A DNA stretch of 64,000 bases from Claveliimonas bilis (lineage in GTDB: Bacteria > Bacillota > Clostridia > Lachnospirales > Lachnospiraceae): assembly GCF_030296775.1 (NCBI RefSeq), contig NZ_AP027742.1:496001-560000 (forward strand), in the 5' to 3' direction. Positions 5,933 to 26,651 of this stretch are shown piece by piece. The notes under the pieces are model-generated. The model saw only the letters and a program-made list of their open reading frames with translations, did not search any database and was not told the DNA's origin. Position numbers and translations under genes: made by a program. Position 1 is the stretch's first letter; each line of letters begins with the position of its first letter.

Positions 5933-6496
5933 ATGAACCGAGAACAGGCACATGAAATTTTACTGAAATATATGAAGGGGGAGAATTATATTACTCATTC
6001 GTATGCAGTAGAAGCCATCATGAGGGGACTGGCTAAAAGGCTGGCGCCGGACCAGGTAGAATACTGGGGAATCGCAGGCCTTCTGCATGACCTTGATGAA
6101 GAACAGTGTGACTGGCAGCATGACATGAGTGTTCACGGTCCTACATCTGTAGAAATTCTGAAAAAAGAAGGAATTGAAGACCCGGTTCTTTTTGACGCGA
6201 TCAAGGCTCACAATCCAAAATGCGGAATGAAAGCCAAGACGAATATCCAGTATGCTTTGCTGGCAGCGGATCCTATGAGCGGATTTGTCAAAGCTGTTGC
6301 CCAGATCTATCCGGATAAAAAAATTGCCAGTGTAAAGCATAAATCCGTTATGAAGCGTTTTAATGAGCTTCGTTTTGCAAAAGGGGCAAACCGGGATTAT
6401 ATGGAAATGATCGAATTTACAGGCCTTTCATTAGATGATCTGATCGATGTTGCGCTGGAAGAGATGGGGGCTATTGCAGATCAGATCGGTTTATAG
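5933..6496 (+). CDS. HD-domain (HDIG-type) phosphohydrolase-like protein
   Basis: 187-residue protein of the HD metal-dependent phosphohydrolase superfamily. The pattern HSYAVEAIMRGLA (about residues 22-34), HDLDEEQ (about 53-59) and a later KAHNPKCG carry the His/His-Asp residues expected to bind metal. Short stand-alone HD proteins of this kind are common in Clostridia and the substrate is not known. The start follows GGAGGAATTAGAA. It has its own weak promoter and is separated from the polysaccharide genes by a good promoter, so it is probably monocistronic. Confidence 0.85.
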   Translation: MNREQAHEILLKYMKGENYITHSYAVEAIMRGLAKRLAPDQVEYWGIAGLLHDLDEEQCDWQHDMSVHGPTSVEILKKEGIEDPVLFDAIKAHNPKCGMKAKTNIQYALLAADPMSGFVKAVAQIYPDKKIASVKHKSVMKRFNELRFAKGANRDYMEMIEFTGLSLDDLIDVALEEMGAIADQIGL

Positions 6497-11415: not shown

Positions 11416-13308
11416 ATGGGAGAACAAAAGAAACGAAAACTGGATCATGTATGGGTGAAAAGGGCAATTGCGCTGGCCTTTATTGATGCGCTGTCTGTTT
11501 TGGCAGCCTATTTGGCAGCTTTGTTTCTGCGATTTGACTTTATTTTTTCGGCGATTCCCAGGGAATATCTTGACGGATATGTGTGGTCCATGCCCTACTG
11601 GGTCATTATAACAATTGTAGTATTTTACGGCTTTCGTCTGTATCACAGTATCTGGCGGTTTGCAGGAATGGCAGAATTTAAAGCCATGGTACAGGCCTAT
11701 ATGGTACTTCTTGTACTGTATATCGCCGGAATGCTGTTTATGAAGCTGCATATGCCGAAGTCCTACTATTTTATGGGATATATGATCAGTATCATGCTGA
11801 CAGCAGGTTCCAGATTTGCCTACCGGCTGCTTCGCTCTTACTTTAACAGAGAACGTCAGAATGAAGGAGAGCCGGCAGACCGTGTAATGGTGATCGGGGG
11901 AGGTCAGGCAGGACAGACCCTAATCAAGGAAATGATGACCAGCAATCATCTGAATACCAAGGTGTGCTGTATTATCGATGATAACCCCAACAAAAAAGGA
12001 AGGGTTCTGGAAGGCGTACCCATTGTAGGAAACCGATATGATATTGTAGATAAAGTAAAAGAATACAAAATTACACGTATCATTTATGCGATTCCGGCAA
12101 CGACCGGGGCAAACCGGAAAGCAATCCTGAATCTCTGCAAAGATACAGGATGTAAAATGCAGACCATTCCGGGTGTGTACCAGCTTCTGAATGAAGAAGT
12201 CAGTGTCACAAAACTGCGCGATGTGGAAATTACAGACCTTCTGGGACGTGCGCAGGTAAAGGTCAATAATGATGAAATCCTCCACGTCCTGAAGAACCAG
12301 GTAGTCATGGTAACAGGAGGAGGAGGTTCCATTGGAAGCGAGCTTTGCCGTCAGATCGCGAAAGCAGAGCCAAGGACACTTATCATTTTCGATATTTACG
12401 AAAATAACGCTTATGATATCCAGCAGGAACTGAGGAGAAAATATCCGGAGCTTCACCTGGAGACTCTGATCGGATCTGTAAGAAACACAAGGCGTGTCAA
12501 CTCCGTGATAGAGAAATACAGACCGGCAGTTATTTTCCATGCTGCAGCCCACAAACATGTGCCGCTGATGGAGGACAGCCCTAACGAGGCGATCAAGAAT
12601 AATGTGGAAGGTACATATAAAGTAGCACAGGCAGCTGCCAAATACGGCGTGAAAAAGTTTGTACTGATCTCCACAGATAAGGCAGTAAATCCTACAAACA
12701 TCATGGGGGCATCCAAGCGTCTCTGTGAAATGGTGGTGCAGATGATGAACCGCCAGTCCGACACCGACTTTGTAGCCGTCCGTTTCGGAAATGTACTTGG
12801 CAGCAACGGAAGCGTGATTCCGCTGTTTAAGAAACAGATCGCCGAGGGCGGACCGGTAACTGTAACAGATAAACGGATTATCCGTTATTTTATGACGATT
12901 CCGGAAGCCGTGTCTTTAGTACTCCAGGCAGCGTATTATGCCCATGGAGGAGAGATTTTCGTTCTGGATATGGGTGAGCCGGTCAAGATTGACGATATGG
13001 CAAGAAACCTGATCCGCCTCTCCGGCTATGTTCCGGATGAGGATATCAAGATAGAATACACCGGACTTCGTCCGGGCGAGAAGCTCTATGAAGAGCTCCT
13101 TATGGATGAAGAAGGCATGACAGAAACAGAAAACGAATTGATTTTTATCGGAAAGCCTATTGAGATGGATGACGAGGATTTCAGAGAAAAACTGAAGCTT
13201 TTAGATGAGGCCAGCAGGATGGAATCCGATAAGATCAAAGAGATCGTTTCAGAGATCGTGCCGACTTACCAGTATAAGAAGAAGGAATTGACAAATTTCA
13301 GCAATTGA
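11416..13308 (+). CDS. FlaA1/CapD-like nucleotide-sugar 4,6-dehydratase, membrane-bound
   Basis: 630-residue fused membrane and short-chain dehydrogenase-like enzyme, the WbpM/CapD group, which typically acts on UDP-GlcNAc. About four membrane helices fill residues 12-115. A first nucleotide-binding domain has VIGGGQAGQTL (about 157), and the catalytic Rossmann domain begins at VTGGGGSIGSE (about 298). The segment STDKAVNPTNIMGASKR holds the active-site residues of this subgroup. Its keto-sugar product would feed the aminotransferase at 14400. The last bases of the gene contain a promoter for the loaP leader. Confidence 0.92.
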   Translation: MGEQKKRKLDHVWVKRAIALAFIDALSVLAAYLAALFLRFDFIFSAIPREYLDGYVWSMPYWVIITIVVFYGFRLYHSIWRFAGMAEFKAMVQAYMVLLVLYIAGMLFMKLHMPKSYYFMGYMISIMLTAGSRFAYRLLRSYFNRERQNEGEPADRVMVIGGGQAGQTLIKEMMTSNHLNTKVCCIIDDNPNKKGRVLEGVPIVGNRYDIVDKVKEYKITRIIYAIPATTGANRKAILNLCKDTGCKMQTIPGVYQLLNEEVSVTKLRDVEITDLLGRAQVKVNNDEILHVLKNQVVMVTGGGGSIGSELCRQIAKAEPRTLIIFDIYENNAYDIQQELRRKYPELHLETLIGSVRNTRRVNSVIEKYRPAVIFHAAAHKHVPLMEDSPNEAIKNNVEGTYKVAQAAAKYGVKKFVLISTDKAVNPTNIMGASKRLCEMVVQMMNRQSDTDFVAVRFGNVLGSNGSVIPLFKKQIAEGGPVTVTDKRIIRYFMTIPEAVSLVLQAAYYAHGGEIFVLDMGEPVKIDDMARNLIRLSGYVPDEDIKIEYTGLRPGEKLYEELLMDEEGMTETENELIFIGKPIEMDDEDFREKLKLLDEASRMESDKIKEIVSEIVPTYQYKKKELTNFSN

Positions 13309-13316
13309 TACATAAT
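13288..13316 (+). promoter_or_regulatory. Strong promoter for the loaP leader
   Basis: Consensus TTGACA at 13288-13293, a 17-bp spacer, and CATAAT at 13311-13316. It straddles the dehydratase stop codon. Its -10 area (AATTGATACATAATAAT) recurs almost unchanged at the second leader promoter (14219-14235). Confidence 0.8.
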
Positions 13317-13344
13317 AATTTGAGATTATGACAAAACTTTAAAG

Positions 13345-13374
13345 TTCCAAATCGTCGCTTTGCCGCGTTTGGGA
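13345..13374 (+). promoter_or_regulatory. LoaP-type RNA hairpin element, copy 1
   Basis: TTCCAAA (13345-13351) pairs with TTTGGGA (13368-13374). The loop and upper stem carry ATCGTCGCTTTGCCGCG (13351-13367), which is identical to 14268-14284 upstream of the next operon. It lies between a promoter and a terminator, as expected for a recognition hairpin of a NusG-paralogue antiterminator. The assignment to LoaP is inferred from the adjacent loaP gene. Confidence 0.7.
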
Positions 13375-13389
13375 CCGTGAAGGGTGATA

Positions 13390-13522
13390 AAGGTATGTTT
13401 TGCATTTTGGGCATGGCATAACCTTCCGCTTGATGTGCGGGCAGCAAAAGCTGCATCTGCACAAATGAACAATCAGGCAGAGGTTTATGCGATGGTCAAA
13501 ATGGCGAAGCATACCTTTTTTT
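13390..13522 (+). terminator. Large structured leader terminator upstream of loaP
   Basis: AAGGTATG at 13390-13397 pairs with CATACCTT at 13510-13517, and pairing continues inward for roughly 12 more bp. The apical part folds further (GCATAACCT with AGGTTTATGC, TGTGC with GCACA, CAGC with GCTG). Seven or eight T residues follow. The whole 130-nt rod ends as a classical terminator. It would stop the 13288 promoter transcript unless antitermination occurs. Confidence 0.75.
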
Positions 13523-13558
13523 ATTTCATAGGAAACTTCGTTCCCTTATGAAATAAAA
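13519..13558. repeat. 12-bp-arm inverted repeat, terminator-like on the minus strand
   Basis: TTTTATTTCATA (13519-13530) and TATGAAATAAAA (13547-13558) are exact inverse complements, with a GGAA/TTCC inner stem. On the minus strand it is followed by a T run. Together with the GC-rich palindromes around 13563-13620 it makes up most of the non-coding space before loaP. Confidence 0.6.
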
Positions 13559-13624
13559 CGCTCCGCGGGGTGCGCACCCGCACAAAGCGGAAATTTGCCG
13601 CTAAGGCGGCCGCGCCCGGCGCGG

Positions 13625-13648
13625 GAGTTCCAATTGCGGAACTCTTTA
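13625..13648 (+). promoter_or_regulatory. Small hairpin just upstream of the loaP ribosome site
   Basis: GAGTTCC (13625-13631) pairs with GGAACTC (13638-13644) around AATTGC, followed by TTTATT. It could be a weak second terminator or a translation-control hairpin. No stronger claim is possible. Confidence 0.4.
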
Positions 13649-13678
13649 TTCTCCACAGGCAAAGCAGGAAGGAAAGCA

Positions 13679-14188
13679 ATGTGGTATGTAATCCAGGTGA
13701 AAACCGGGAACGAAGAAGAAATCAGCACACAGTGCAGCCGGATCGTTGACCCGGCTGTCCTTGAAAAAAGTTTTATTCCCTACTGTGAGCAGATGAAGAA
13801 ATATCATGGTGAGTGGCACAAGGAAAAGAAAGTGCTGTTTCCCGGCTATGTGTTCCTTGTTAGCGGGGATAAAGACAGACTTTTCCTGGAACTTAAAAAA
13901 GTAACAGGACTTACAAAACTGCTTGGGACAGGACAGGAGGTCGTTCCGCTGACTTTGCCGGAGATTGAATTTTTACAGCGGTTCGGCAAAGAGGATCAGA
14001 TCGTGGAGATGTCCAGGGGAATCATTGAAAATGACAAAGTTATCATCACAAGCGGCCCTCTCAAAGGCAACGAAGCTCTTATTAAAAAGATCGACCGTCA
14101 CAAACGCCGGGCTTATCTGGAGATTGAAATGTTTGGACGGAAGGTAGAGACACAGGTGGGAGTGGAGATTGTAAAGAAGAGGGAATGA
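13679..14188 (+). CDS. loaP: LoaP-family NusG-like processive antiterminator
   Basis: 169-residue specialised NusG paralogue. The N-terminal NGN domain starts MWYVIQVKTGNEEEI and includes LFPGYVFLVS. The C-terminal KOW domain contains GIIENDKVIITSGPLKGNEA and IEMFGRKVETQVGVEIV. The ATG at 13679 follows AGGAAGGAAAGCA; a longer in-frame ORF upstream crosses GC-rich hairpins and is rejected. LoaP proteins bind RNA hairpins in leaders of long polysaccharide or antibiotic operons and let polymerase ignore terminators. Here the gene sits between two leaders with matching hairpins, so it probably controls itself and the EPS operon at 14400. Confidence 0.88.
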   Translation: MWYVIQVKTGNEEEISTQCSRIVDPAVLEKSFIPYCEQMKKYHGEWHKEKKVLFPGYVFLVSGDKDRLFLELKKVTGLTKLLGTGQEVVPLTLPEIEFLQRFGKEDQIVEMSRGIIENDKVIITSGPLKGNEALIKKIDRHKRRAYLEIEMFGRKVETQVGVEIVKKRE

Positions 14189-14201
14189 GAAGGATAGGAC
14201 T

Positions 14202-14231
14202 TTGCCATACGGATAGTAATTGATACTTAAT
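14202..14231 (+). promoter_or_regulatory. Promoter of the second leader (EPS operon)
   Basis: TTGCCA at 14202-14207, an 18-bp spacer, and CTTAAT at 14226-14231. The -10 surroundings copy the first leader promoter. Weaker than the 13288 promoter by consensus. Confidence 0.55.
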
Positions 14232-14261
14232 AATAGGAAGAAACAAGAAAGAATTTCAGGT

Positions 14262-14291
14262 CTTTGGATCGTCGCTTTGCCGCGGCCAGGG
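14262..14291 (+). promoter_or_regulatory. LoaP-type RNA hairpin element, copy 2
   Basis: CTTTGG (14262-14267) pairs with CCAGGG (14286-14291). The enclosed ATCGTCGCTTTGCCGCG (14268-14284) is identical to copy 1. The flanking stems differ in sequence yet both pair, which supports the structure. It lies 17 nt before a terminator. Confidence 0.7.
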
Positions 14292-14307
14292 GGCTGGAAG
14301 GATATAG

Positions 14308-14362
14308 AGGATGTGCGATTTTGGCATGGCGAAGGCTGTGCCGGAAGGCATGTCCTTTTTTT
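14308..14362 (+). terminator. Leader terminator before the EPS operon
   Basis: AGGATGTGC (14308-14316) pairs with GCATGTCCT (14348-14356), enclosing GGCATGGC/GCTGTGCC (14323-14330 with 14335-14342, GAAG loop). Seven T residues follow. It stands 38 bp before the first EPS gene, so expression of that gene needs read-through. Confidence 0.8.
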
Positions 14363-14399
14363 GTGGGGGAATAGTAGAAAGATGGAGTGGGAATAAGCA

Positions 14400-15626
14400 A
14401 TGGAAAAAAGAAATATTTTATTTAGTCCTCCCGATATTACGGAATTGGAAATAGAAGAAGTGGCTAATGCAATGCAATCTGGTTGGATTACTACTGGACC
14501 AAGAACAAAGATATTGGAAAATCGAATAGCAGATTTTATTGGAGTAAATAAAACGGTATGTCTTAATTCAGCTACGGCTTCGGAAGAACTAAATTTAAGA
14601 ATTTTAGGAATCGGAGAAGGAGACGAGGTTATTGTCCCTGCCTATACATATACAAGTTCAGCCGCCGCTGCAATTCATGTGGGAGCTAAAGTAGTTTTTA
14701 TAGATTCTCAACCAGGATCTGTAGAAATGGACTATGATGCAATGGAAGCTGCTATCAATAAAAAAACAAAAGCTATCATTCCTGTAGATATTGGAGGAGT
14801 GGTATGTGATTATCAAAGAATTTTTGAAGCAGTAGAAAATAAAAAATCTCTTTTTAAGCCTTCGGGTAATACAGAACTTGGACAACGCATTCAAACAGCG
14901 CTTGGAAGAATAGCAGTGGTAGCTGACTGCGCTCATGCCTTGGGGGCAAAACGGTATGGAAAAAAAGCAGGAGCAATTGCAGATATGTCCAGTTTTAGTT
15001 TTCATGCAGTGAAGAATTTTACTACGGCAGAAGGCGGAGCAAGCAGTTGGAAAACAATACCCGGCATTGATGATGATGAAATTTATAAATGGTTTCAGCT
15101 TTATTCTTTGCATGGACAGAGTAAAGATGCATTAGCAAAAACGCAACTAGGAGCATGGGAATACGATATTGTGGCACCGCTCTATAAGTGCAATATGACA
15201 GATATCATGGCGGCTATTGGTTTAAAACAATTGGATCGGTATCCAGCGTTGCTAGAGAGAAGAAGAGAGATAATAGAAAAATATAATGTAGCTATGGACC
15301 AAATGGGAGTAGAGTATTTAAAGCATTATGATGAAGATGCGGAAAGTAGTGGTCACTTGTATCTCATTCGTGTTCCAGGGATTACAGAAAAAAAGCGTAA
15401 TGAAATTATTAGAGAAATGGCAGTACAGGGAGTAGCAACTAATGTTCATTATAAGCCCTTGCCAATGATGACAGCTTATAAAGCGTTGGGGTGGGATATA
15501 AAAGACTTTCCTAATGCTTATGACTATTATCATAATCTGATTACGTTACCTCTTCATACGAAACTGACTGATGAGGATGTAGATTATGTAATAGACAAAC
15601 TGACAAAGATATTGAAAACAATTTAA
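14400..15626 (+). CDS. DegT/DnrJ/EryC1/StrS sugar aminotransferase
   Basis: 408-residue PLP-dependent aminotransferase of the nucleotide-sugar family. The PLP lysine lies in SFHAVKNFTTAEGG (about residue 205). The cofactor-phosphate region VCLNSATASEELNL and the aspartate segment VVADCAHALGAKR are in the expected order. It probably aminates C4 of the keto-sugar made by the dehydratase at 11416. No partner acetyltransferase of the PglD type is visible, so the product may remain a 4-amino sugar. First gene after the LoaP-type leader; base composition drops sharply to AT-rich from here. Confidence 0.92.
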   Translation: MEKRNILFSPPDITELEIEEVANAMQSGWITTGPRTKILENRIADFIGVNKTVCLNSATASEELNLRILGIGEGDEVIVPAYTYTSSAAAAIHVGAKVVFIDSQPGSVEMDYDAMEAAINKKTKAIIPVDIGGVVCDYQRIFEAVENKKSLFKPSGNTELGQRIQTALGRIAVVADCAHALGAKRYGKKAGAIADMSSFSFHAVKNFTTAEGGASSWKTIPGIDDDEIYKWFQLYSLHGQSKDALAKTQLGAWEYDIVAPLYKCNMTDIMAAIGLKQLDRYPALLERRREIIEKYNVAMDQMGVEYLKHYDEDAESSGHLYLIRVPGITEKKRNEIIREMAVQGVATNVHYKPLPMMTAYKALGWDIKDFPNAYDYYHNLITLPLHTKLTDEDVDYVIDKLTKILKTI

Positions 15627-15646
15627 ATCATATGAGGGGAAAATAA

Positions 15647-16345
15647 ATGTTTTTGAGAAAGTGGAATGAACTTCCGGAAGACATGAAAACACCAGAAGTA
15701 AAAAAATATTATGATATTTTAGCAAAACATAGAATAAGCCTTTTTCTAAAAAGAATTTTTGATATTATACTATCTTTCATTATGCTACTTATTTTAGCAT
15801 TTCCAATGGCATTAATTTCACTTTTAATTGTTTTTGACTCTCCGGGAGGAGTGTTTTATAGGCAAGTGCGTATCACGGCATATGGAGAAAAATTTCGTAT
15901 CCATAAATTCCGCACAATGATAAAAGATGCAGACAAAGTAGGGAGCTTAGTAACTGTTGTGGAAGATAAAAGAATTACTAAAATTGGCAAGTTTTTGCGT
16001 AAATACAGATTAGATGAAATGCCACAGTTGTTTGATGTTTTATTTGGAAAGATGTCTTTTGTGGGAACCAGACCAGAAGTTCCAAAGTATGTAAAAAAGT
16101 ATACAAATGAAATGAAGGCAACGTTACTCCTTCCAGCAGGAATCACATCTGAAGCCAGTATTCGATATAAAGATGAAGCGAAATTACTAGATGAAACTGA
16201 TGATATAGATGGTGTATATGTAGAGAAAGTTTTAAAAGAAAAAATGAGATATAATCTTAAAGCGGTTGAAAGGTTTAGCCTTGCTAAAGATATGATGACG
16301 ATGATACGAACTGTATTTGTGGTGTTGGGAAGGAAATATAAATAA
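15647..16345 (+). CDS. Initiating phosphoglycosyl transferase (PglC/WcaJ-type sugar transferase)
   Basis: 232-residue bacterial sugar transferase that loads the first sugar-phosphate onto undecaprenyl phosphate. A single membrane-embedded segment (about residues 29-60) precedes the catalytic core. The core has PGGVFYRQVRI, FRIHKFRTM, RKYRLDEMPQLFDVLFGKMS and FVGTRPEVP. The arrangement after an aminotransferase gene fits priming with an amino-dideoxy sugar. The start follows GAGGGGAAAATAA. Confidence 0.93.
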   Translation: MFLRKWNELPEDMKTPEVKKYYDILAKHRISLFLKRIFDIILSFIMLLILAFPMALISLLIVFDSPGGVFYRQVRITAYGEKFRIHKFRTMIKDADKVGSLVTVVEDKRITKIGKFLRKYRLDEMPQLFDVLFGKMSFVGTRPEVPKYVKKYTNEMKATLLLPAGITSEASIRYKDEAKLLDETDDIDGVYVEKVLKEKMRYNLKAVERFSLAKDMMTMIRTVFVVLGRKYK

Positions 16346-16375
16346 AATGGTAAAGAATACGGGAGGAAAAAGAAA

Positions 16376-17143
16376 ATGATTGATGGATTAGTTTCAATTA
16401 TTATGCCTTCTTGGAATACTGGGAGATTTATTGGTGAATCCATTCAGTCTGTAATTAATCAGAGTTATAAGCAGTGGGAACTCCTGATTATAGATGATGG
16501 TTCTACCGATGATACTGATAAAGTAGTTGCTTTATTTGAAGATAAAAGGATTAAATATTTCAAAAATATAGAGAATTGTGGAGCGGCATTATCTAGAAAT
16601 AGGGCATTGCGTGAAGCACAGGGAGAGTGGATTGCATTTTTAGATTCAGATGATTTATGGGATCCTGAAAAATTGGAACATCAGATTAAATTTATGAAAA
16701 AGAATAATTTTATTTTTTCTTATCATGACTATGTAAAAATTGATGAAGAATCCAATCCTTTAAATATTTATGTTACAGGCCCAGATGTTGTTACTAAGAA
16801 AAGGATGTATGACTATGGGTATCCAGGCTGTTTAACCTTTATGTATAGTTCAAAAGTTATGGGAGTTATTCAAATTAAGGATATCAAGAAGAATAATGAT
16901 TATGCAATCTTATTAAAACTTTGTAAAAAAGCAAATTGCTATTTACTAAAAGAAAACCTTGCACAGTACAGAATTAGAAAGCAGTCTATATCTCATGATA
17001 AATTGGGTAAAAAATTGAAAAGTCATTATGATTTATTTCATTATTGTGATGAGAGAAAAGCCATAGTTGCACTTTGGTATGCCTGCTGGAATATGTTTTA
17101 TGGCGTGCTGAAGAAGAAAAAGTATGAAAAGAAAATAATTTAG
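16376..17143 (+). CDS. GT2-family glycosyltransferase
   Basis: 255-residue GT-A fold glycosyltransferase. The start is LVSIIMPSWNTGRFIGESIQ, then LLIIDDGSTDDTDKV, and the metal-binding DSDDLWDPEKLEHQ at about residue 88. It is probably cytoplasmic and adds one sugar of the repeat unit to the lipid carrier. Donor and acceptor cannot be read from sequence. Confidence 0.9.
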   Translation: MIDGLVSIIMPSWNTGRFIGESIQSVINQSYKQWELLIIDDGSTDDTDKVVALFEDKRIKYFKNIENCGAALSRNRALREAQGEWIAFLDSDDLWDPEKLEHQIKFMKKNNFIFSYHDYVKIDEESNPLNIYVTGPDVVTKKRMYDYGYPGCLTFMYSSKVMGVIQIKDIKKNNDYAILLKLCKKANCYLLKENLAQYRIRKQSISHDKLGKKLKSHYDLFHYCDERKAIVALWYACWNMFYGVLKKKKYEKKII

Positions 17144-17157
17144 AAAGAGAACAGAAA

Positions 17158-18309
17158 ATGAAAGTACTATTGATCAATCCTTGGGGAATACGCAATGACC
17201 AATATTATACATCAGGTTTTATAAGTTCTATGAATAGGTTAATTAATTTGGATTATGTATCTAATTATTATTATAAGGGCGTTAATCCAAATGGAAAATT
17301 ATTTCGCATATTTTTTAAAAACACAGAAAATATGTCTGAATCTGTTAGAAGAACCATACTTCGAGGAATTGAATATATTGTTGCATGGAACAAAATCATA
17401 AAGATTATAAATGCCAACGAATATGATATTATTCATATTCATTGGTTGTTATTCTATAAAGCGGATATTGTTTTTTTGGAAAAATTGAGAAAAATAATGG
17501 GGACAAAAAAAATAATTTTAACAGCTCATAATGTGATTCCGCATATAAATGGAGAAAGGAAAATAGAAATTTTGAAAAAAGTATATAGTTATTTTGATTA
17601 TATACTTGTACATGGAGAGGCGATAAGAGATGAATTTGTTGAAATTTTTCCGGAATTTAGAAATAAAATTAAAGTTCAATATCATGGGGTATATTTAGGA
17701 CAAGGAACCTCAATTAGATTATCAATATACAATGATAAAAAGAGTGAAATAGATAGGTTAAGAATGAAATATAATAAAATTTTTATTATGTACGGATATC
17801 ATTATTTTAACAAAGGAACAGATAGATTGATAAGAATATGGAAAGAAAATTACTTGGATAAAGATGCGCTTTTATTAGTGGTAGGAAAGAAAGATTCTGT
17901 ATATTTAGAGTTGGAGGAAATAGTGCAACAAATAAAAAGTACGGATAATATTATATATATACAAGGTTATTTAGAGGAAGATATATTAAATTATTATATT
18001 AACATTTCAGATTGTGTAATTGTACCATATAGGCATGCCTCTATGAGTGGGGTGGTTTTTACAGCAGCGACATTCAAAAAGATGGTAATTTGTACAAAAG
18101 CAGGCGCTATTTCAGAATATATAGAAGATCAAAAGGATGGATTAGTATGTGGGATAGAAAACGAGGAACTAAATATGGCTATAGGTAAAGCTATGGAAAT
18201 GTCGAATGTAGAAATGAAAATGATGGGGGAAAATTTATTTAAAAATATTTATTCTAAATTCTCCTGGCAAGTGATATCAAATAATGTTGTAAAAAATATA
18301 TATTGTTAA
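17158..18309 (+). CDS. GT4-type glycosyltransferase
   Basis: 383-residue GT-B fold protein. The N-terminal MKVLLINPWGIRN and IIHIHWLLFY, then HNVIPH, match the acceptor domain of GT4 enzymes. The C-terminal half has FIMYGYHYFNKGTDRLIR and the donor-site stretch VIVPYRHASMSGVVFTAATF. Part of the EPS operon, 14 bp after the GT2 gene. Sugar specificity unknown. Strongly AT-rich like its neighbours. Confidence 0.85.
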   Translation: MKVLLINPWGIRNDQYYTSGFISSMNRLINLDYVSNYYYKGVNPNGKLFRIFFKNTENMSESVRRTILRGIEYIVAWNKIIKIINANEYDIIHIHWLLFYKADIVFLEKLRKIMGTKKIILTAHNVIPHINGERKIEILKKVYSYFDYILVHGEAIRDEFVEIFPEFRNKIKVQYHGVYLGQGTSIRLSIYNDKKSEIDRLRMKYNKIFIMYGYHYFNKGTDRLIRIWKENYLDKDALLLVVGKKDSVYLELEEIVQQIKSTDNIIYIQGYLEEDILNYYINISDCVIVPYRHASMSGVVFTAATFKKMVICTKAGAISEYIEDQKDGLVCGIENEELNMAIGKAMEMSNVEMKMMGENLFKNIYSKFSWQVISNNVVKNIYC

Positions 18310-18335
18310 CGAAAAAGTAGTGGATTGGAGGAACT

Positions 18336-19448
18336 ATGATTTTTTATAACATAGTATTTGGGATATTAGCCTTTTTATCTTTTGTAGAGTTATTTAGTTA
18401 TATCTCAGGAAGAAGTAAAAAGATTATAATAAAAATTACAGTAGTTATATTAATTATTTTTTCAGGCTTTTATTCTGGACCTATGGGGGATTATACAACA
18501 TATAAAGCCTATTTTGAGAATATCACTAATTCCCATTTGACTAATTTTCAGGATAATAGATTTGAATACTTATATGAGCTTATAAATGTAATTATACATT
18601 GGTTTACTACTAAATACTATATTTTAAGGCTTGTAATGGCCTTAATTGTGATGGGTCTTTGGTACAAAATTTATACATATTGGCAAGACGAAAACAATAA
18701 AAGATATGCACTTACTACTCTATTTATATTATGGTCACTGAATTTTGGAAACATATTTATTATTAGAAGTACAGTAGCGGTTTCTATATGTGTATATAGT
18801 ATTAGATATATAGAGGGAAAAAATCTAAAAAAATTTCTCTTATCGGTGATTATCGCGATGGGATTTCATACTATGAGTATAATATGGGCGGGAGCATATT
18901 TTATATTTAGAAAATCTGCATGGAAAAAATTTTATTATATAATATTGGGACTAGTAGTATTATTCTCTAATTATATGGCAAAGTTTGTTCTTGAAATTGC
19001 CTCATATTTAGGGGAGAGAATTTATAATAGTATTTACAGTTATATTATGTATGGAGCTAATCAAACTTTTTCTGTGACATATGACAATAGGTTTACTACA
19101 TTTAAGGCACTCTTAAATATAGTGTTCTTATTAATTCTTTTTATATATGTAGTACGAAGAAAAGAAAAAATGTGTACTTTGCAAAATGAAGACAGGTATT
19201 TAAATCTTTATTTAATCGGTTCAATTGTTTATGTAATTGCGCTAAACAGTTCGAATGCTCTAACAAGAGCAGCTTTAACATATAATTCTGCACAATATTT
19301 CTTATTGCCTAGGATGTTTGATTTACCGGAAATACGGCGTAATATAACAATTAAATTTATGACGTTTATGCTGTTTGTTACCTATTTATATATGAGAATG
19401 TATATGAATATAAATTCAAATGCATACGTGCCATTTACTTTAATTTAA
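18336..19448 (+). CDS. EpsG-family (Wzy-like) polysaccharide polymerase
   Basis: 370-residue polytopic membrane protein with roughly ten hydrophobic segments. It contains GDYTTYKAYFENI and NRFEYLYELINVII, a pattern typical of EpsG-type proteins. Such proteins polymerise lipid-linked repeat units outside the membrane in the Wzx/Wzy pathway. It is the only polymerase-like protein in the cluster and complements the flippase at 24456. Assignment rests on topology and the EpsG-like N-terminal region, not on a catalytic motif. Confidence 0.78.
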   Translation: MIFYNIVFGILAFLSFVELFSYISGRSKKIIIKITVVILIIFSGFYSGPMGDYTTYKAYFENITNSHLTNFQDNRFEYLYELINVIIHWFTTKYYILRLVMALIVMGLWYKIYTYWQDENNKRYALTTLFILWSLNFGNIFIIRSTVAVSICVYSIRYIEGKNLKKFLLSVIIAMGFHTMSIIWAGAYFIFRKSAWKKFYYIILGLVVLFSNYMAKFVLEIASYLGERIYNSIYSYIMYGANQTFSVTYDNRFTTFKALLNIVFLLILFIYVVRRKEKMCTLQNEDRYLNLYLIGSIVYVIALNSSNALTRAALTYNSAQYFLLPRMFDLPEIRRNITIKFMTFMLFVTYLYMRMYMNINSNAYVPFTLI

Positions 19449-19470
19449 AATAGAAAGCGAACAATAGAAG

Positions 19471-20637
19471 ATGAAAGTATTAGAAATAACTTTTGTGCCA
19501 CCAGATAAAAAATCTGGTGGTGGGCTAGGAGTGTATCAGTCTATTAAATCTTTAGCTGGAAATTGTGAAGTGGATTATATAGGTCCTGCATATGAAATTG
19601 AATTATTTTCAGATACTATAAATAAAGTTCATATACATACGATATTAAAATCTAAAAAAGAAAGTAAGTTATTAGGTATAATTCGATTTTTTACGAAAAA
19701 AGTTAGTACTTCTTTTTATTATTCATGGATGAATTGTAAGAACCACATTAATTGGGAACAATATGATTTTGTTCATATAGAATTTAGTCGATATTCTTTT
19801 TTGATTAATGAATGTCATAAATATGGGAAAAAGTGCATGATACGAATACACAATATAGAGAAGGATTATGCATATAATATTTATCGAATGAGCAGAACCA
19901 TGGCGAATAAGATGCGTTACTACTCATTTTGGATTAATGAAAAAAAGGTAATGAAAGACGGAGATATGTTTATATTTCTTACTAATGAGGATATCAAGAG
20001 AGCAATTGAATTATATAATCTGGAAACAGAAAAAATAACTAAGAATCCTGTCTGCATAGACGAAAAAGGTCAATTCCTCAAATGCAAAAAAATAAATGAA
20101 AAGAAAAATATATTAATAACAGGAAGTTTGAGTTATGCGCCCAATATAGAGGGCGTTCTTTGGTTTTTAAATAATGTTTGGGAAAAATTAAGTACTGAAG
20201 ATATTATTGATAATGCATTTCTTACTATTGCAGGGGCACATCCAAATGAAAGCATAAAAGAAGCGATAAAAAAATATCCAAATGTTAGGCTAATTGATAC
20301 TCCAAATGAAATGGAATCATTATTTCGAAACGCAGATATTTATATTGCAGCAGTATTCGATGGAGCTGGGATGAAAGTAAAAGTAGCAGAAGCATTTTCT
20401 TATGGCTTACCTATTATAGGAACAAAGCATGCTTTTATTGGTTATGAAGATTTGCATTTTGGAAAATATATTGCTGATTCGGAAAGTGATTTTATAAGAC
20501 AAATAAAAGATATTTGTTGCAATAGGACGCTACTTGAGTCACGAGAAAAAATTTATCATTTATTTTGTATAAATATCAGTATGAGAAGCAGCATTCAAAG
20601 ATATAAAGAATATATTTCTAAAATAGGAGAAAAGTAA
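19471..20637 (+). CDS. Glycosyltransferase, GT4/GT1-like
   Basis: 388-residue GT-B protein. N-terminal MKVLEITFVPPDKKSGGGLGVYQSI is the glycine-rich acceptor-side loop, and IRIHNIEKDYAYNIYR follows. In the C-terminal half ILITGSLSYAPNIEGVLWF and DIYIAAVFDGAGMKVKVAEA match the donor-binding region of this family. It ends exactly at the start codon of hddA (1-bp overlap), so the two are translationally linked. Confidence 0.85.
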   Translation: MKVLEITFVPPDKKSGGGLGVYQSIKSLAGNCEVDYIGPAYEIELFSDTINKVHIHTILKSKKESKLLGIIRFFTKKVSTSFYYSWMNCKNHINWEQYDFVHIEFSRYSFLINECHKYGKKCMIRIHNIEKDYAYNIYRMSRTMANKMRYYSFWINEKKVMKDGDMFIFLTNEDIKRAIELYNLETEKITKNPVCIDEKGQFLKCKKINEKKNILITGSLSYAPNIEGVLWFLNNVWEKLSTEDIIDNAFLTIAGAHPNESIKEAIKKYPNVRLIDTPNEMESLFRNADIYIAAVFDGAGMKVKVAEAFSYGLPIIGTKHAFIGYEDLHFGKYIADSESDFIRQIKDICCNRTLLESREKIYHLFCINISMRSSIQRYKEYISKIGEK

Positions 20638-21647
20638 TGATAATAACAAAAACACCATTCCGAATGTCGTTTTTTGGCGGTGGAACAGATATAGAGGAGT
20701 ACTTTAGGGAAAATAGCGGGGCAGTACTTTCAACAACATTTGATAAATACTGTTATGTAAATGTGCGGCATTTGCCGCGCTTTTTTGATTATAGTACAGA
20801 AATTGCATATTCAAAAATGGAGAGGGTAACAAAAGTAGATGATATTAAACACCCGGCGATAAGAGAGGCGATGAAATTGCTTGATATGCATGAGATTCGT
20901 CTTACATATGAAGCCGATCTTCCAGCGCGATCTGGTTTAGGGACCTCTTCTTCTTTTGCGGTAGGAATGCTTAATGCGTTTCACGCTTTAAAGGGAAAAT
21001 ATGTGGATAAAAAAAAGTTGGCCGATGAGGCTATTTATCTTGAGAGAGTATTGTGTAATGAAGCGGGGGGATGGCAGGATCAAATAGCGGCTTCTTTTGG
21101 AGGTTTAAATCGAATAAATTTTGGACCGGATGGATATGAAGTTTTGCCAGTCATCATTTCTCCCGATAGAAAAAGTCAACTAAATAATAATTTATTAATG
21201 TTTTTCACGGGATTTACAAGATTTTCATCTGATATTCAGAGAGTAAATGCAATTTCTAAGAATGAAAAGAAGGCACAATTAAAAGAAATGTATTCTTTGG
21301 TTGATGAGGCAGAAAAAGTGCTCGTGGATAAAGAAAAAAACATAGATGATTTTGGAATATTACTCAATCAAACGTGGAAATTGAAAAGACAAACAGGAGT
21401 TGCTATATCAACAAATAGTATTGATGAGTTGTATCTTAAAGGAATAGAAGCAGGTGCACTTGGTGGCAAACTGTTAGGAGCAGGCGGGGGAGGTTTTTTG
21501 ATATTTTATGTATGTCCTGAAAATCAAGAGGCAGTAAAAAGAGCTATGAAAGAATTGCTATATATTCCCTTCAGATTTGAAAACGGAGGTACGAGAGTAA
21601 TACATTATACTCCGGAGCTCTATGAACCTAGAAAGGAAAGTAAGTGA
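20637..21647 (+). CDS. hddA: D-glycero-alpha-D-manno-heptose 7-phosphate kinase (HddA-type GHMP kinase)
   Basis: 336-residue GHMP-superfamily kinase. The N-terminus TPFRMSFFGGGTDIEEYF and the ATP loop PARSGLGTSSSFAVGML (about residue 97) are hallmarks of HddA-like kinases. The late GGKLLGAGGGGFLIFY motif is also present. It would phosphorylate C1 of D-glycero-D-manno-heptose 7-phosphate in the alpha branch, the route to GDP-heptose. Direct neighbours gmhA and the downstream hddC-gmhB fusion complete that pathway. Confidence 0.9.
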   Translation: MIITKTPFRMSFFGGGTDIEEYFRENSGAVLSTTFDKYCYVNVRHLPRFFDYSTEIAYSKMERVTKVDDIKHPAIREAMKLLDMHEIRLTYEADLPARSGLGTSSSFAVGMLNAFHALKGKYVDKKKLADEAIYLERVLCNEAGGWQDQIAASFGGLNRINFGPDGYEVLPVIISPDRKSQLNNNLLMFFTGFTRFSSDIQRVNAISKNEKKAQLKEMYSLVDEAEKVLVDKEKNIDDFGILLNQTWKLKRQTGVAISTNSIDELYLKGIEAGALGGKLLGAGGGGFLIFYVCPENQEAVKRAMKELLYIPFRFENGGTRVIHYTPELYEPRKESK

Positions 21648-21649
21648 CA

Positions 21650-22306
21650 ATGGGATTATTAGATAAAAAGATAGAAAAGCATGTAGAGTTATTAATGGAG
21701 AGATATCCAAAGTTAATGAGTGTTAGAGAAGATATTATTAATGGATATATTGTTTTAGAAAATTGTTACAGGACTGGAGGGAAACTTTTGATAGCCGGAA
21801 ATGGTGGATCTGCAAGTGATTCGGAACATATTGCTGGTGAATTAATGAAATGTTTTAAAATACCGCGCCCGGTTAGTAAGGAATATGCAAAGAAATTAAT
21901 TTCGATTGATTCAAAAAGAGGTCCAGTGTTAGCACAGAATTTGGAACAAACACTTATGGCAATTCCGTTAGTAGCGCATGAAGCATTGACAACGGCATAT
22001 ATCAATGATGTAGATGGGGTGGGGGTATTTGCACAACAGTTGTTCGGTTTTGGAAAAAAAGGAGATGTTTTTCTTGGAATTTCAACATCAGGAAATAGTA
22101 AAAATATTATGAATGCAACTGTAGTTGCCAGGGCTTCAGGGATGAAAATTCTTAGTTTGACTGGAGCAGAGGGTGGGGAATTGGCATTAGTATCAGATGT
22201 TGCAGTTAAGGTGCCTGAAAATGAAACATACATGATACAGGAGTTACATCTTCCTGTATATCATTGTTGGTGTTTAATGTTGGAAGATAAATTTTTTGGA
22301 AAATAA
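21650..22306 (+). CDS. gmhA: Sedoheptulose-7-phosphate isomerase (GmhA-type SIS protein)
   Basis: SIS-domain isomerase of 218 residues, converting sedoheptulose 7-phosphate to heptose 7-phosphate, the first GDP-heptose step. Motifs are AGNGGSASDSEHIAGELMKCF and FLGISTSGNSKNI; the SDSEH segment is typical of GmhA. The ATG at 21650 is preferred over a GTG at 21644, which lies too close to the AAAGGAAAG ribosome site. It follows hddA within 2 bp. Confidence 0.92.
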   Translation: MGLLDKKIEKHVELLMERYPKLMSVREDIINGYIVLENCYRTGGKLLIAGNGGSASDSEHIAGELMKCFKIPRPVSKEYAKKLISIDSKRGPVLAQNLEQTLMAIPLVAHEALTTAYINDVDGVGVFAQQLFGFGKKGDVFLGISTSGNSKNIMNATVVARASGMKILSLTGAEGGELALVSDVAVKVPENETYMIQELHLPVYHCWCLMLEDKFFGK

Positions 22307-22319
22307 AGTTGTGAGTAGT

Positions 22320-23270
22320 ATGAAAATGATACCCATAGTTATTGTAGACTATAATACTGTAGAAAGAACAGAAAAATACATAGATGATGCTGAAAAGAAC
22401 ATTTTTCCGTTAAAAAAAACATATATAGTTGTAGAAACTGGGATGGACAATGAGTTATGTAGATTTGAAAAAATGTATTATAAGCTAGGTGAAATAAAAA
22501 ATATAGATTACAGAATTAAATTTATAAAGAAATATAGAACAGAAAAAGAAAACGCAATTTATTTTATTGGTTTGAAAGAGAATTACGGTTTTGCCATAGC
22601 AAATAATATAGGAGCCTGTTTTGCTAAAAAAGTTTTAAAGGAGAAGATGGATATATTATTGTTTAGTAATAGCGATATCTGTTTTATAGAACCTATTGAT
22701 TTAACATATTATAGTAAACTATTTGTTGATAATGATTCCGTTGCTGTAATAGGTCCACGAGTAATAGGAATAGACGGAAAGGAGCAGTCGCCATATAGAT
22801 ATATTGGATTGATAAAAAGATGGATGTTGCATTTTTGTATATGGCCTTTAGACTCAGTTTTACATTTTTTGTTTACATCTTCAGATAAAATAAGAGTAGA
22901 TAATACTGCTGCTGTTTATAGAGTAATTGGTGCATTTATGCTAATACGGAGTGAGTATTTTTTTGAAGTTAACATGTTTGATGAAAATACTTTTTTATAT
23001 TGTGAAGAAAATATTTTGTCGGAAAGATTTATGTCGAAAGGATATATAACGTTATATGACCCAACATTTGTAATAATACATGAGGAGGGTAATGCAACAA
23101 AGCAAATCTATAATAATGATAAAAGAAGTGCCCAGCAATTAAAATCTGAATTATATTATTATAGAAAATATAAACGATATAATAAGTCCTTAATAAAGCT
23201 AACAGAGCAAATGAGTTATATGTATTTTTGGAAAAGAAAAATGTTATTCAGGTTATTAAGAAAGGAATAG
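22320..23270 (+). CDS. GT2-like glycosyltransferase
   Basis: 316-residue protein. IPIVIVDYNTVERT near the start, LKENYGFAIANNIGACFA and DILLFSNSDICF (DXD-like position) identify a GT2/rhamnosyltransferase-like fold. The later FDENTFLYCEENILSERF is the family's conserved acidic segment. A TTG at 22296 would extend the frame into gmhA; the ATG at 22320 is chosen, although the ribosome site is weak. It probably transfers a deoxysugar or heptose. Confidence 0.82.
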   Translation: MKMIPIVIVDYNTVERTEKYIDDAEKNIFPLKKTYIVVETGMDNELCRFEKMYYKLGEIKNIDYRIKFIKKYRTEKENAIYFIGLKENYGFAIANNIGACFAKKVLKEKMDILLFSNSDICFIEPIDLTYYSKLFVDNDSVAVIGPRVIGIDGKEQSPYRYIGLIKRWMLHFCIWPLDSVLHFLFTSSDKIRVDNTAAVYRVIGAFMLIRSEYFFEVNMFDENTFLYCEENILSERFMSKGYITLYDPTFVIIHEEGNATKQIYNNDKRSAQQLKSELYYYRKYKRYNKSLIKLTEQMSYMYFWKRKMLFRLLRKE

Positions 23271-23277
23271 TAATAAT

Positions 23278-24456
23278 ATGAATTATATAATTTCAGGCGG
23301 GTGGGGATATGGAAATTGGGGAGATGAAGCCATACTATATTGTAGCATAAAAATGATAGAATTGTACAAAGGTACTGGAGAGTTAACTATTCTTTCATAT
23401 AATAGTAGTAATATAGACAGGTATAGAGAAAAATATCAATGTAACTTATCATTGCATAGGCTTGTGAAGGATGGGATGGTAAGTTATAAAAATATGTTGG
23501 AATGGGCCAAAGGAAAGGATGTATGTCTATCGTCAAATGAAAAAAAATATGTAAATATGTTTTCTGAAAACGATATATTTATTATGTGTGGGGGTGGATA
23601 TTTTAATGAAGAGTGGGAAGAATCATTTAGAATTAGAGTTTTAGAAATACTTTTAGCTAAAAGAAAAAAGAGTAAAATTTATATACATGGACAAACAATT
23701 GGGCCAATTGGAAAAGAAAAAAATAAAAAAATATTATATTATGCCTTAAATATGGTAAATAAAATTTATGTAAGAGATAAAGGAAGTTACAACTTAATGA
23801 AGAGCATTAAGTTGCATGAAAAAACAGAGATTATACCCGATGTAGTTAATTGTGTCCCGGATTTTCACAGTGTTTTTCATACAACTGAAGAATATGTAGT
23901 GGTAATGTTTTGCTCATATAGATATCATAGGTCGGAGAAATATAAATATCGGGGTAAGACTTTGCTTTGGCTAGGACAAAAATTTAAAACGATCTTGGGA
24001 TTACGAAAAAAGTATAATAAAAAAATTAAAACAGTTCTTCGCTCATTAATAGAAGAAGGACAAAATATAAAATATATTGTCAGTACAGAGTGGGATTATC
24101 AATATGCATGTGAAATTGCTGCAAAATTAGGGGATAATATTGAAATAGTGAAAAGTAGTTCTGTATTTGAATACCTAAATCTTCTATCGGGGGCACAAAT
24201 TATCATCAGTACAAATATGCATCCAATAGTTATAGGACATGCATATAATGTTCCTGTAGTTGCTATTTCATACGGATTTAAAACGGATAACTATATGGAG
24301 GAAATAGGACTTTCCGAGGCATTATTTAATATAGATTACTTTGATGAAAAGAAAGTTATAGAATGTATAAAGAATAAGAAATTTCTATATGGAAAAAAAG
24401 TTGATAAAAATTTAGTATATACATCTGTTGAAAAGATGTTTATAAAGGAAATGTAA
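23278..24456 (+). CDS. Polysaccharide pyruvyl transferase family protein
   Basis: 392-residue member of the pyruvyl transferase family (CsaB/WcaK group). The N-terminal GGWGYGNWGDEAILYCSI, central IYIHGQTIGPIGKEKNK and VRDKGSYNLMKS, and C-terminal STNMHPIVIGHAYNVPVVAISYG all follow the family plan. It would add a ketal-linked pyruvate from phosphoenolpyruvate to the repeat unit, giving the polymer negative charge. Overlaps the next gene by 1 bp. Confidence 0.87.
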   Translation: MNYIISGGWGYGNWGDEAILYCSIKMIELYKGTGELTILSYNSSNIDRYREKYQCNLSLHRLVKDGMVSYKNMLEWAKGKDVCLSSNEKKYVNMFSENDIFIMCGGGYFNEEWEESFRIRVLEILLAKRKKSKIYIHGQTIGPIGKEKNKKILYYALNMVNKIYVRDKGSYNLMKSIKLHEKTEIIPDVVNCVPDFHSVFHTTEEYVVVMFCSYRYHRSEKYKYRGKTLLWLGQKFKTILGLRKKYNKKIKTVLRSLIEEGQNIKYIVSTEWDYQYACEIAAKLGDNIEIVKSSSVFEYLNLLSGAQIIISTNMHPIVIGHAYNVPVVAISYGFKTDNYMEEIGLSEALFNIDYFDEKKVIECIKNKKFLYGKKVDKNLVYTSVEKMFIKEM

Positions 24457-25847
24457 TGGGGAAAAGTATAAGAAGTACAGGTTTAGTAAAAAATACAGTA
24501 ATACTAGGAATTGGTTCAATAGGTACAAAGTTTATTAGTGTAATCATGCTTCCGTTTTATACATCATGGTTATCGGTTAATGATTATGGATCTATAGATG
24601 TATTTAACGCTTTAGTTGCAGCATTAGTTCCTGTTTTAAGTTTGCAAATTGAACAAGCTGTTTTTAGATTTTTGATAGATGCAAAAGAAAAAAAAAGAAA
24701 AAGCACCATATTGAAAACAGGCATTTTGACAATAGTATTTATTTTGAGCATAATCAATATATTAGCGATAATGTTATTTCCTTTTATCGATTATAAATTG
24801 AAATACTATTTTTTATTTGCTATAGATTTTAATGTACTAATTACAGTGTTGTTACAAATTATTCGAGGTCTTGGGAAAAACTATGCATATACAGTGAATA
24901 GTATTTTGGTGTGTTTTATTAATCTATTGTTTAGCATAATATATGTAAGATATGAGAATATAGGGGTAATTGGTATATTACGCGCCAATATTATTGCAAA
25001 TATAGTAGGAATAGTGTATCTACTAGTTGTTATTTGGAAAGAAAGGATTTGGAAAAGTGGTTCGTTTGAAAAAACACTTTTAAAAACATTTGTGGGATAT
25101 TCTATTCCTATGATTTTAAATAATGTTTCGTGGTGGATCTTAAATTTATCAGATAAGTTGATAGTAAATCAATTTTTAAATACCACTTATAATGGTATAT
25201 ATGCCGCTGCCGGGAAACTATCATATATTATTATTTCTCTATATTCTGTTTTTTCATTAGCATGGCAGGAATCAGCTTCAAGAGCTTATGCAAGTGTTGA
25301 ATATGAAGAGTATTGCAATAAAATTCATAAAATTATATTAGATATTTGTATACATATGGTTGCAATTACTCTTGTAATTTCTCCTATAATATTTGACATT
25401 TTAATTAATGAAAAATTTTCGCAAGCTTACATACATAATTTAATTCTTATAGTAGCAACTTTTTTTTGGTGTATGTCATCTTTTTATGGTGGAATTTTTG
25501 TGGGGGTAAAGAATACCGATAATCTAGGAATAACGTCAATGATAGCTGCTATAACAAACATAGGAATTAACATAGTACTTATTAATATTATAGGGTTGTA
25601 TGCTGCAAGTATATCAACATTGATATCTTATTTTGTTTTGTTCTTAATACGTTATTTCAAACTGCAAAAATGTATTTCAATTAGAATTGACATGTATCAT
25701 ATCTTTTCGATGATACTAGCATTTGGAATAGGATTTTATATTTCTATAGTGGATAATAAAATTATTAGCTTAATTATAGGAACATTATACGCTATGGCGT
25801 ATACGATATGTTCTATTAAAGAAATAAAATTATTATTAAAAATGTAA
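24456..25847 (+). CDS. Oligosaccharide flippase (Wzx-like, MATE/MOP superfamily)
   Basis: 463-residue polytopic membrane protein with about 12-14 hydrophobic segments. The start KNTVILGIGSIGTKFISVIMLPFYTSWL is the usual first helix of Wzx/PST transporters. It would flip the undecaprenyl-linked repeat unit outward for the EpsG-like polymerase. It is the last gene before the IS110/IS21 interruption, and the remaining heptose gene lies beyond the insertion. Confidence 0.9.
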   Translation: MGKSIRSTGLVKNTVILGIGSIGTKFISVIMLPFYTSWLSVNDYGSIDVFNALVAALVPVLSLQIEQAVFRFLIDAKEKKRKSTILKTGILTIVFILSIINILAIMLFPFIDYKLKYYFLFAIDFNVLITVLLQIIRGLGKNYAYTVNSILVCFINLLFSIIYVRYENIGVIGILRANIIANIVGIVYLLVVIWKERIWKSGSFEKTLLKTFVGYSIPMILNNVSWWILNLSDKLIVNQFLNTTYNGIYAAAGKLSYIIISLYSVFSLAWQESASRAYASVEYEEYCNKIHKIILDICIHMVAITLVISPIIFDILINEKFSQAYIHNLILIVATFFWCMSSFYGGIFVGVKNTDNLGITSMIAAITNIGINIVLINIIGLYAASISTLISYFVLFLIRYFKLQKCISIRIDMYHIFSMILAFGIGFYISIVDNKIISLIIGTLYAMAYTICSIKEIKLLLKM

Positions 25848-25972
25848 AAACATTGAAAACATATGAAAGACTAACTATTAAAAGTCAAGTTTAAAATGAA
25901 AATTTTTGAATGAATTGCAGAAATGCATTTTAGATAAAGATGTACCTAAAAAACTGCATGACAAGCAGAGTG
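25848..25972. other. Junction between the flippase gene and the IS110 remnant
   Basis: AT-rich spacer. A short frame running 25900-26007 (LQKCILDKDVPKKLHDKQSV...) could be the tail of a truncated EPS gene, but no family is recognised and it runs into IS110 sequence on the other strand. No promoter or terminator of quality is seen. Confidence 0.3.
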
Positions 25973-26651
25973 TTATTTCAAAAGGGGATATTTACAGAAT
26001 AAGTTAAGCTGTTGGTACGTATGATTGCTTTGATTTTCCATTGCGAATATTAACCATACAAGTTTCTTTGCGGTATGAGACAATGCAACGTTATAGTGCT
26101 TGCCTCCAGAGAGTTTCTTGCGGCTTTGCGAAAGATGACAGCAGTATCTTTTCCATATCTGCCTTTGGAATTTTCGGAGAGCAGATTAGAAAGCCTTGTG
26201 AGGTGTGCTGATGCGATAACATTAGCACGCGGAAATTCAGAAAGCATAAATGGAAACCATATGAAGCGTAGAAAGGAATTTTCCAGCTCTGGGAAAAGAA
26301 TACACACAAGTCTAGAAACAGAAATTTTCAGCTTTGCCCGTTCTTTGACTTTATCAAAACGGTAACGGGTTAGTGACTTTAATTCCTCATTGTGGTAAGA
26401 CGTGTTTAAGTTTATGTCAGATATCATCATAGTGGCGATAGTACGGGACTCCACCTTATCCGTTTTAGTCTTTCTAAGGCTAAGACTTTTTCTATAAAGG
26501 TTTGTGTGGAGCGGATTGATGATAAAGGTGCGGCAGCCTTTATGAAGAAGAAGTCCCAGAAGATTGTAACTGTAGTGTCCGGTGGCTTCCAGTCCTAATT
26601 TTACTTTATTTAAATCATTTGATATGGATATGATTCTTTGAAATAAGGTTT
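25973..26651 (-). pseudogene. IS110-family transposase, 3' part (internally deleted)
   Basis: Downstream portion of an IS110 DEDD transposase. From the IS21 junction it reads FETLFQRIISISND, KVKLGLEATGHYSYN and KTKTDKVESRTIATMM. Near 26110 the frame changes: the +1 frame continues as GGKHYNVALSHTAKKLV, the usual IS110 C-terminus. The domain between these points, which carries the catalytic serine region, is missing, so the protein is inactive. The 5' part lies at 29304-29455 beyond the IS21 insertion. Confidence 0.85.

Follow-up and report, generated by a model that had tools for sequence, protein, structure and literature searches.

The genome of Claveliimonas bilis (Lachnospiraceae) holds a gene for the NusG paralog LoaP that lies between two short modules sharing an identical 17-mer, and this arrangement raises the question of what the modules do. 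We analysed a 64-kb stretch around them (contig NZ_AP027742.1, positions 496,001 to 560,000; in the following the window), which belongs to a genome of 3.11 Mb in one contig. Both modules are probably cis-acting leaders for LoaP. Of greatest interest is a constant element within such leaders, TGGCG(A/G)AGC, that was not mentioned in the first-pass annotation of this DNA. Anatomy, conservation, covariation and linkage to loaP and to exopolysaccharide (EPS) genes were obtained by sequence analysis; the coordinates of all features are given in Table 1.

The first-pass annotation had described twin hairpins around the 17-mer, bracketing loaP, and this description stands: both copies are exact, their stems differ and still pair, and a terminator follows each. 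With up to 3 mismatches allowed there was no third match in the window (shuffles: mean 0.06, largest 1), and the whole genome contained 5 further matches, each with 3 mismatches, against 8 in a backward control. Folding gave a hairpin for both copies, with the inner pairing in common and different outer stems. Since folding energy alone gives weak z-scores (−0.8 to −2.1 for module 1, −0.9 to −2.2 for module 2), the structure of these hairpins rests on covariation. A strong stem-loop with a T7 tract closes each module; the terminator scan reported that of module 2 and not that of module 1. For the promoters, a near-identical −10 region had been claimed. A stretch of 17 nt upstream of both hairpins is indeed identical at 16 positions, but the promoter of module 2 is weak and was not scored by the promoter scan on the + strand. 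Promoter-scan matches in this region were no commoner than in shuffles (4 versus 4.4). An Rfam search of the window gave no match over the gathering threshold.

The gene between the modules had been named loaP, and the profile search agrees. Its product scored 188.1 bits with NF033641 (curated cut-off 125), and its scores with other profiles (NusG 64, UpxY 49, RfaH 39) stayed below the respective cut-offs. The top match among solved structures was PDB 8f5g, which we take to be a LoaP-RNA complex, and the protein is 98% identical to LoaP of Claveliimonas bilis c-25. Polysaccharide genes flank loaP on both sides, so that a biosynthetic operon adjoins it, and the small 5′ leader hairpin stands upstream of a terminator in a LoaP-linked operon, as in known LoaP leaders. 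A plasmid search with LoaP gave 2 matches, both distant.

The hairpin, which we call class A, was present upstream of loaP in 6 of 6 genus genomes having LoaP over the cut-off (11 genus genomes were examined), and also in loci L037-L041, with LoaPs of 58–69% identity. Among 10 sequences the core was nearly invariant, 8 of 14 pairs changed on both sides, and 92.9% of the cells were paired, compared to 30–43% in slid controls; in helix 1 of 27 leaders the value was 94.1%. The loops read UUUG, CUUG, UUCG, AUUG and others; UUCG was the loop at 3 loci outside the family. A covariance model of the hairpin (R1) was then applied to 397 genomes of the family (E ≤ 0.01). R1 hairpins were found in 28 genomes, LoaP over the cut-off in 45, and both in 22. 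This corresponds to 22/45 genomes with LoaP versus 6/352 without it (odds ratio 55; p 1.5e-18, a nominal value, the genomes being related). In 19 of 28 places loaP followed 88–376 nt downstream of the hairpin (window and same-species copy excluded). Where hairpins stand away from loaP, in G102 and G150, the next gene encodes a DegT-type aminotransferase, like that behind module 2; in G338 a sugar dehydrogenase comes next, then a DegT-type aminotransferase, and the hairpin itself follows a gene whose product shares its domains with that of 11416-13308. As loaP was not among the genes seen beside these three hairpins, action in trans is suggested.

Thus, most of what the first-pass annotation had proposed for the hairpin holds, namely its covariation, its link to loaP itself and to EPS genes, and its value as a motif of this lineage. 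Two further expectations need qualification. The motif is kept in all genus genomes with LoaP and in 22 of 45 in the family, but the other 23 LoaP genomes lack a class A hairpin. It is rare without loaP, but G338 is a true exception. In G061 and G399, which have the hairpin and no LoaP over the cut-off, the contig ends 71 and 293 nt downstream. R1 matches in G204, G305 and G369 are low (23–24 bits) and doubtful; those in G204 and G305, weak and with no element nearby, look false, and that in G369 is uncertain. The best reading of the class A hairpin is that it represents a new lineage among the LoaP leader hairpins already known.

In order to describe the whole leader, a second covariance model (R2) was built from 27 other leaders, with the window sequence excluded. 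On the window (E ≤ 1) R2 matched module 1 (73.6 bits, E 1.4e-15) and module 2 (47.3 bits, E 2.7e-9), and no third place. In the 27-leader alignment the hairpin is followed by a GNCATA-like box, a second stem-loop and then TGGCG(A/G)AGC, after which the bases are mostly N, T, A or G, and then C's. The leader is therefore more than the hairpin and terminator described at first. All 6 counted pairs of the second stem-loop change on both sides somewhere, and 72.8% of its cells are paired. TGGCG[AG]AGC lies within 110 nt of the hairpin in 24 of 28 R1 places (antisense: 1), at 43–56 nt past the end of the R1 model with a single exception at 97. Twenty-three of the 28 places carry the exact 9-mer; permuted 9-mers gave a mean of 0.014 and at most 7. 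G150a (which has a variant), G338, G305 and G204 lack the element. In 35 sites, chosen by a motif that allows only these two forms, TGGCGAAGC occurred in 32 and TGGCGGAGC in 3, beside variable stems. In 25 of them the preceding stem had its last paired base exactly one position ahead of TGGCG, with 5 expected from mononucleotide shuffles, and the stem beside the constant element cannot be aligned gap-free. At L041:263-311, GGCGAAG stands twice in tandem (ATGGCGAAGTGGCGAAGC) at the element. We noticed no paper that joins the element to LoaP or to pausing, in a LoaP literature covered in part. A search joining GCGAAGC to pausing of RNA polymerase and the non-template strand yielded nothing, and among the matches listed for pieces of the 9-mer none was on NusG.

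The element is not confined to leaders with a class A hairpin. The family has 66 LoaP places over the cut-off, 21 with a class A hairpin in front and 45 without, and 43 of the latter were examined (second genes of two G272 tandem pairs excluded). The element was found in sense orientation within 400 nt of 21 of these 43 genes, 10 times upstream and 11 times downstream; antisense controls gave 1 and 0, and permuted 9-mers a mean of 0.05–0.07 and at most 3. Several such leaders bear other hairpins, either of a class B with its core around GNAGCNNGGGCAC or related to class A. The pattern RTGGCGAAGCNTRCCC occurred at 25 places in 23 of the 397 genomes (reversed control: 4), with a NusG paralog within 1.5 kb of 20. 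The choice of the pattern was made with 13 of the 25 places already known; of the 12 new ones, 8 have a NusG paralog.

Beyond the family, R2 gave 15 matches in 245 genomes of the class. Among 12 loci outside the family, a NusG paralog stood beside 6, the element was present in 7 and a hairpin with UUCG loop in three; L229, L230 and L233 had neither paralog nor element. In Eggerthellales, which belong to another phylum, GGGCGAAGC was found beside 3 of 4 loaP loci. The loaP flanks read GGGGCGAAGCC(A/G)TG 151 nt upstream in L042, 149 nt upstream in L043 and 246 nt downstream in L047; no element was found at L044, which has a run of N upstream. A class-A-like sequence (4 mismatches to the 17-mer) lies at L043:5056 within the coding region of an Eggerthellaceae loaP and may be due to chance.

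A tree of 53 NusG-like proteins was compared to the hairpin types. The labels cluster (14 changes versus a shuffled mean of 26.7). All six class B proteins with a correct label fall into a single clade (99/98). G272b and G272c were wrongly labelled B, as the leader beside them precedes the next tandem LoaP. Class A does not form a single clade and needs 6 changes. The hairpin type thus tracks the protein in part. In one genome, G272, both hairpin classes occur together with 8 LoaPs. G000 has two tandem pairs of NusG paralogs (C1 ~1550356-1551718 and 2438448-2439882; L149:5357-6719 and L150:8449-9883), all under the LoaP cut-off (81–116 bits). In front of each pair, inverted repeats with CGCAGAGT enclose a segment (222 or 193 nt long) that is possibly an invertible promoter. 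In one of the pairs a separate leader stands before the second paralog (L150, upstream of 8946 (−); also L009); it comprises a GGTCATA box, a stem-loop and ATGGCGAAGCATACCC, and its hairpin is a different one.

How could such leaders work? In Bacillus velezensis, LoaP attaches to a UNCG hairpin of the dfn leader and counters NusA at the terminator, as described in the parts of PMC12691694 considered here. The dfn and mln systems share with ours the LoaP gene, a leader hairpin before a terminator and a pause between them, presumed in our case; some relatives have UUCG loops. Unlike dfn and mln, the leaders described here belong to EPS operons, and loaP itself is preceded by a hairpin; the conserved TGGCGNAGC with its preceding stem-loop is not mentioned in those parts of the paper. 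From the B. velezensis work we infer that LoaP may bind these leaders and cause read-through. RNA polymerase would start upstream and transcribe the class A hairpin, LoaP would bind the hairpin RNA, and the LoaP-bearing polymerase would pass the terminator. Read-through in module 1 would reach loaP itself, amounting to autoregulation, and then processively the EPS genes behind it. Transcripts initiated downstream of loaP and ahead of the EPS cassette would be gated by module 2.

For the element we propose bipartite recruitment: choice would fall to the RNA hairpin, and loading to a pause at which the non-template DNA is folded. The proposal draws on the d(GCGAAGC) in the element, its likeness to ops and its pause-like spacing. 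The second stem-loop and TGGCGNAGC might form a hairpin-stabilised pause that loads the N-terminal domain of LoaP, helped by a mini-hairpin in the non-template DNA as RfaH is by ops; we give this slightly less than an even chance. TGGCGNAGC contains d(GCGAAGC), of the d(GCGNAGC) type. The consulted parts of PMC10527192 describe d(GCGAAGC) as an extraordinarily thermostable mini-hairpin and list such a hairpin with two pairs, its letters not being shown, at 76.5 °C. As far as PMC5995543 was compared, RfaH and ops likewise combine an invariant leader element with a NusG paralog, and each holds the sequence of a short DNA hairpin, GCGGTAGC in ops and GCGAAGC here, the loops differing in length by one base. 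The leaders described here differ from ops in the preceding RNA stem-loop, the covarying hairpin about 50 nt earlier and the LoaP family. Because the sequence is TGGCG(A/G)AGC instead of GGCGGTAG, the element is ops-like at most. A his-type pause, which is stabilised by a hairpin, resembles the element in that the stem ends about 12 nt before a T|R site. It differs in that here the sequence after the stem is itself invariant and the pause is a predicted one. To our knowledge, no RNA hairpin or shared element has been described for the leaders of Bacteroides UpxY. As proposed here for LoaP, this NusG paralog acts on termination in the leader that precedes its gene, within capsule loci (PMC7819879, in the parts compared). 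Still more tentatively, LoaP-clade paralogs of Clostridia and Eggerthellaceae may share one scheme, in which a clade-specific RNA hairpin chooses the paralog and a common pause with a d(GCGNAGC) mini-hairpin in the non-template strand, the counterpart of ops, loads it onto RNA polymerase.

Several observations weigh against this picture. The class A hairpin was not found in 23 of 45 LoaP genomes, and G338, 99% complete, has the hairpin and EPS genes and no LoaP over the cut-off; its one match, with 88 bits, may be the housekeeping NusG. In other classes of the phylum, six LoaP loci (the seventh, L248, excluded) had no TGGCGNAGC within 700 nt. In B. velezensis the pause between hairpin and terminator helps and is not strictly required, LoaP bound single-stranded DNA from just upstream of the hairpin only weakly and nonspecifically, and the authors hold the LoaP-hairpin complex to be sufficient; these parts of the paper report no binding to DNA at the pause (PMC12691694, same parts). 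ViennaRNA with DNA parameters gives no fold for TGGCGAAGCATA. In module 2 the element is not in its conserved place and no promoter was scored; TGGCGAAGG lies within the terminator with no stem directly before it, and is probably not a working element.

The element could also be part of an intrinsic terminator or another RNA structure, kept for its base pairing. In module 1 it does lie within the 3′ arm of the terminator with its T7 tract, and in 37 leaders pairing between the box and the region after the element was 13.7 within versus 12.5 across leaders, a weak signal that 2 of 500 shuffles equalled. We consider this unlikely: the element is near-constant beside variable stems, it appeared in 24 of 28 places picked by the hairpin and independently of the motif, and a U-tract follows it in only 14 of 35 sites and is missing in 21, so that many elements are not terminators. 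A leader peptide might also begin at the codons RTG GCG AAG. In all 35 sites TGG is preceded by A (27) or G (8), and a start codon is therefore always possible. This reading was rejected, and we hold it to be most improbable, as the 27 aligned leaders show no third-position change in GCG or AAG; the recurrent change is in the first position (AAG to GAG), and G150a differs elsewhere (ATA GTG AAG).

Twin leaders are not a general arrangement, as two modules were seen in this strain only; each of the other 5 genus genomes with LoaP has one leader within 15–18 kb around loaP. G001, of the same species, is 98.4% identical from window position 6001 to the loaP stop codon and divergent after it, where the GC content falls from about 45% to 26–35%. 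By eye it has a similar terminator after loaP, and neither the hairpin nor the shared upstream stretch. Since G001 has the terminator without the hairpin, terminator 2 is probably older, and the hairpin of module 2 is specific to this strain and borders on an exchanged EPS cassette. The same break in identity and GC content, and the missing hairpin in G001, would fit a module 2 that is a mere repeat marking the exchangeable cassette, with no regulatory meaning. This is quite unlikely, given that module 2 retains the core, a paired stem, the box and their order, and that its stem differs from that of module 1 and still pairs. The low-GC EPS cassette (26–35%) covers window positions 15000-26000, and G001 holds a different low-GC cassette there.

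Table 1. Features of the two modules and the neighbouring genes (positions in the window).
Feature	Position	Strand	Basis or remark
Preceding polysaccharide gene (Polysacc_synt_2, CoA_binding_3)	11416-13308	+	Domain matches
Possible promoter 1, TTGACA-17-CATAAT	13288-13316	+	Promoter scan, 11/12 matches; overlaps 3′ end of gene 11416-13308
LoaP-type hairpin 1 (class A), core 13351-13367	13343-13376	+	Fold; R1 48.5 bits
GNYATA-like box, module 1 (GTGATA)	13384-13389	+	Leader alignments
Very long second stem-loop with T7 tract, intrinsic terminator 1	13389-13522	+	−73.3 kcal/mol, z −8.85
TGGCGAAGC, candidate pause/ops-like element	13502-13510	+	Conservation, alignment
d(GCGAAGC) within module 1 element	13504-13510	+	Presumed pause after T13512
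loaP, 169 aa	13679-14188	+	NF033641 188 bits; PDB 8f5g, E 6.6e-18
AATTGATACTTAATAAT, possible promoter 2	14218-14234	+	16/17 match to 13303-13319; not scored by promoter scan
LoaP-type hairpin 2 (class A), core 14268-14284	14260-14293	+	Fold; R1 41.5 bits
GATATA box, module 2	14301-14306	+	R2 alignment
Terminator 2 with T7 tract	14306-14362	+	Terminator scan, z −5.57
TGGCGAAGG inside terminator 2	14327-14335	+	Off the conserved position
EPS cassette gene 1, DegT/PseC-like aminotransferase	14400-15626	+	Profile matches

The leaders described here yield a signature by which LoaP-type leaders of gut bacteria can be recognised in sequence, and they tie capsule operons to such leaders. The element is a testable candidate for the loading of LoaP, which so far was thought to need only the RNA hairpin, and it would link LoaP to the RfaH ops paradigm. 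Orthogonal pairs of antiterminator and hairpin are predicted, which could be used as tools. If the proposed scheme is true, a genome would hold several orthogonal hairpin-paralog pairs that have one type of loading site in common.

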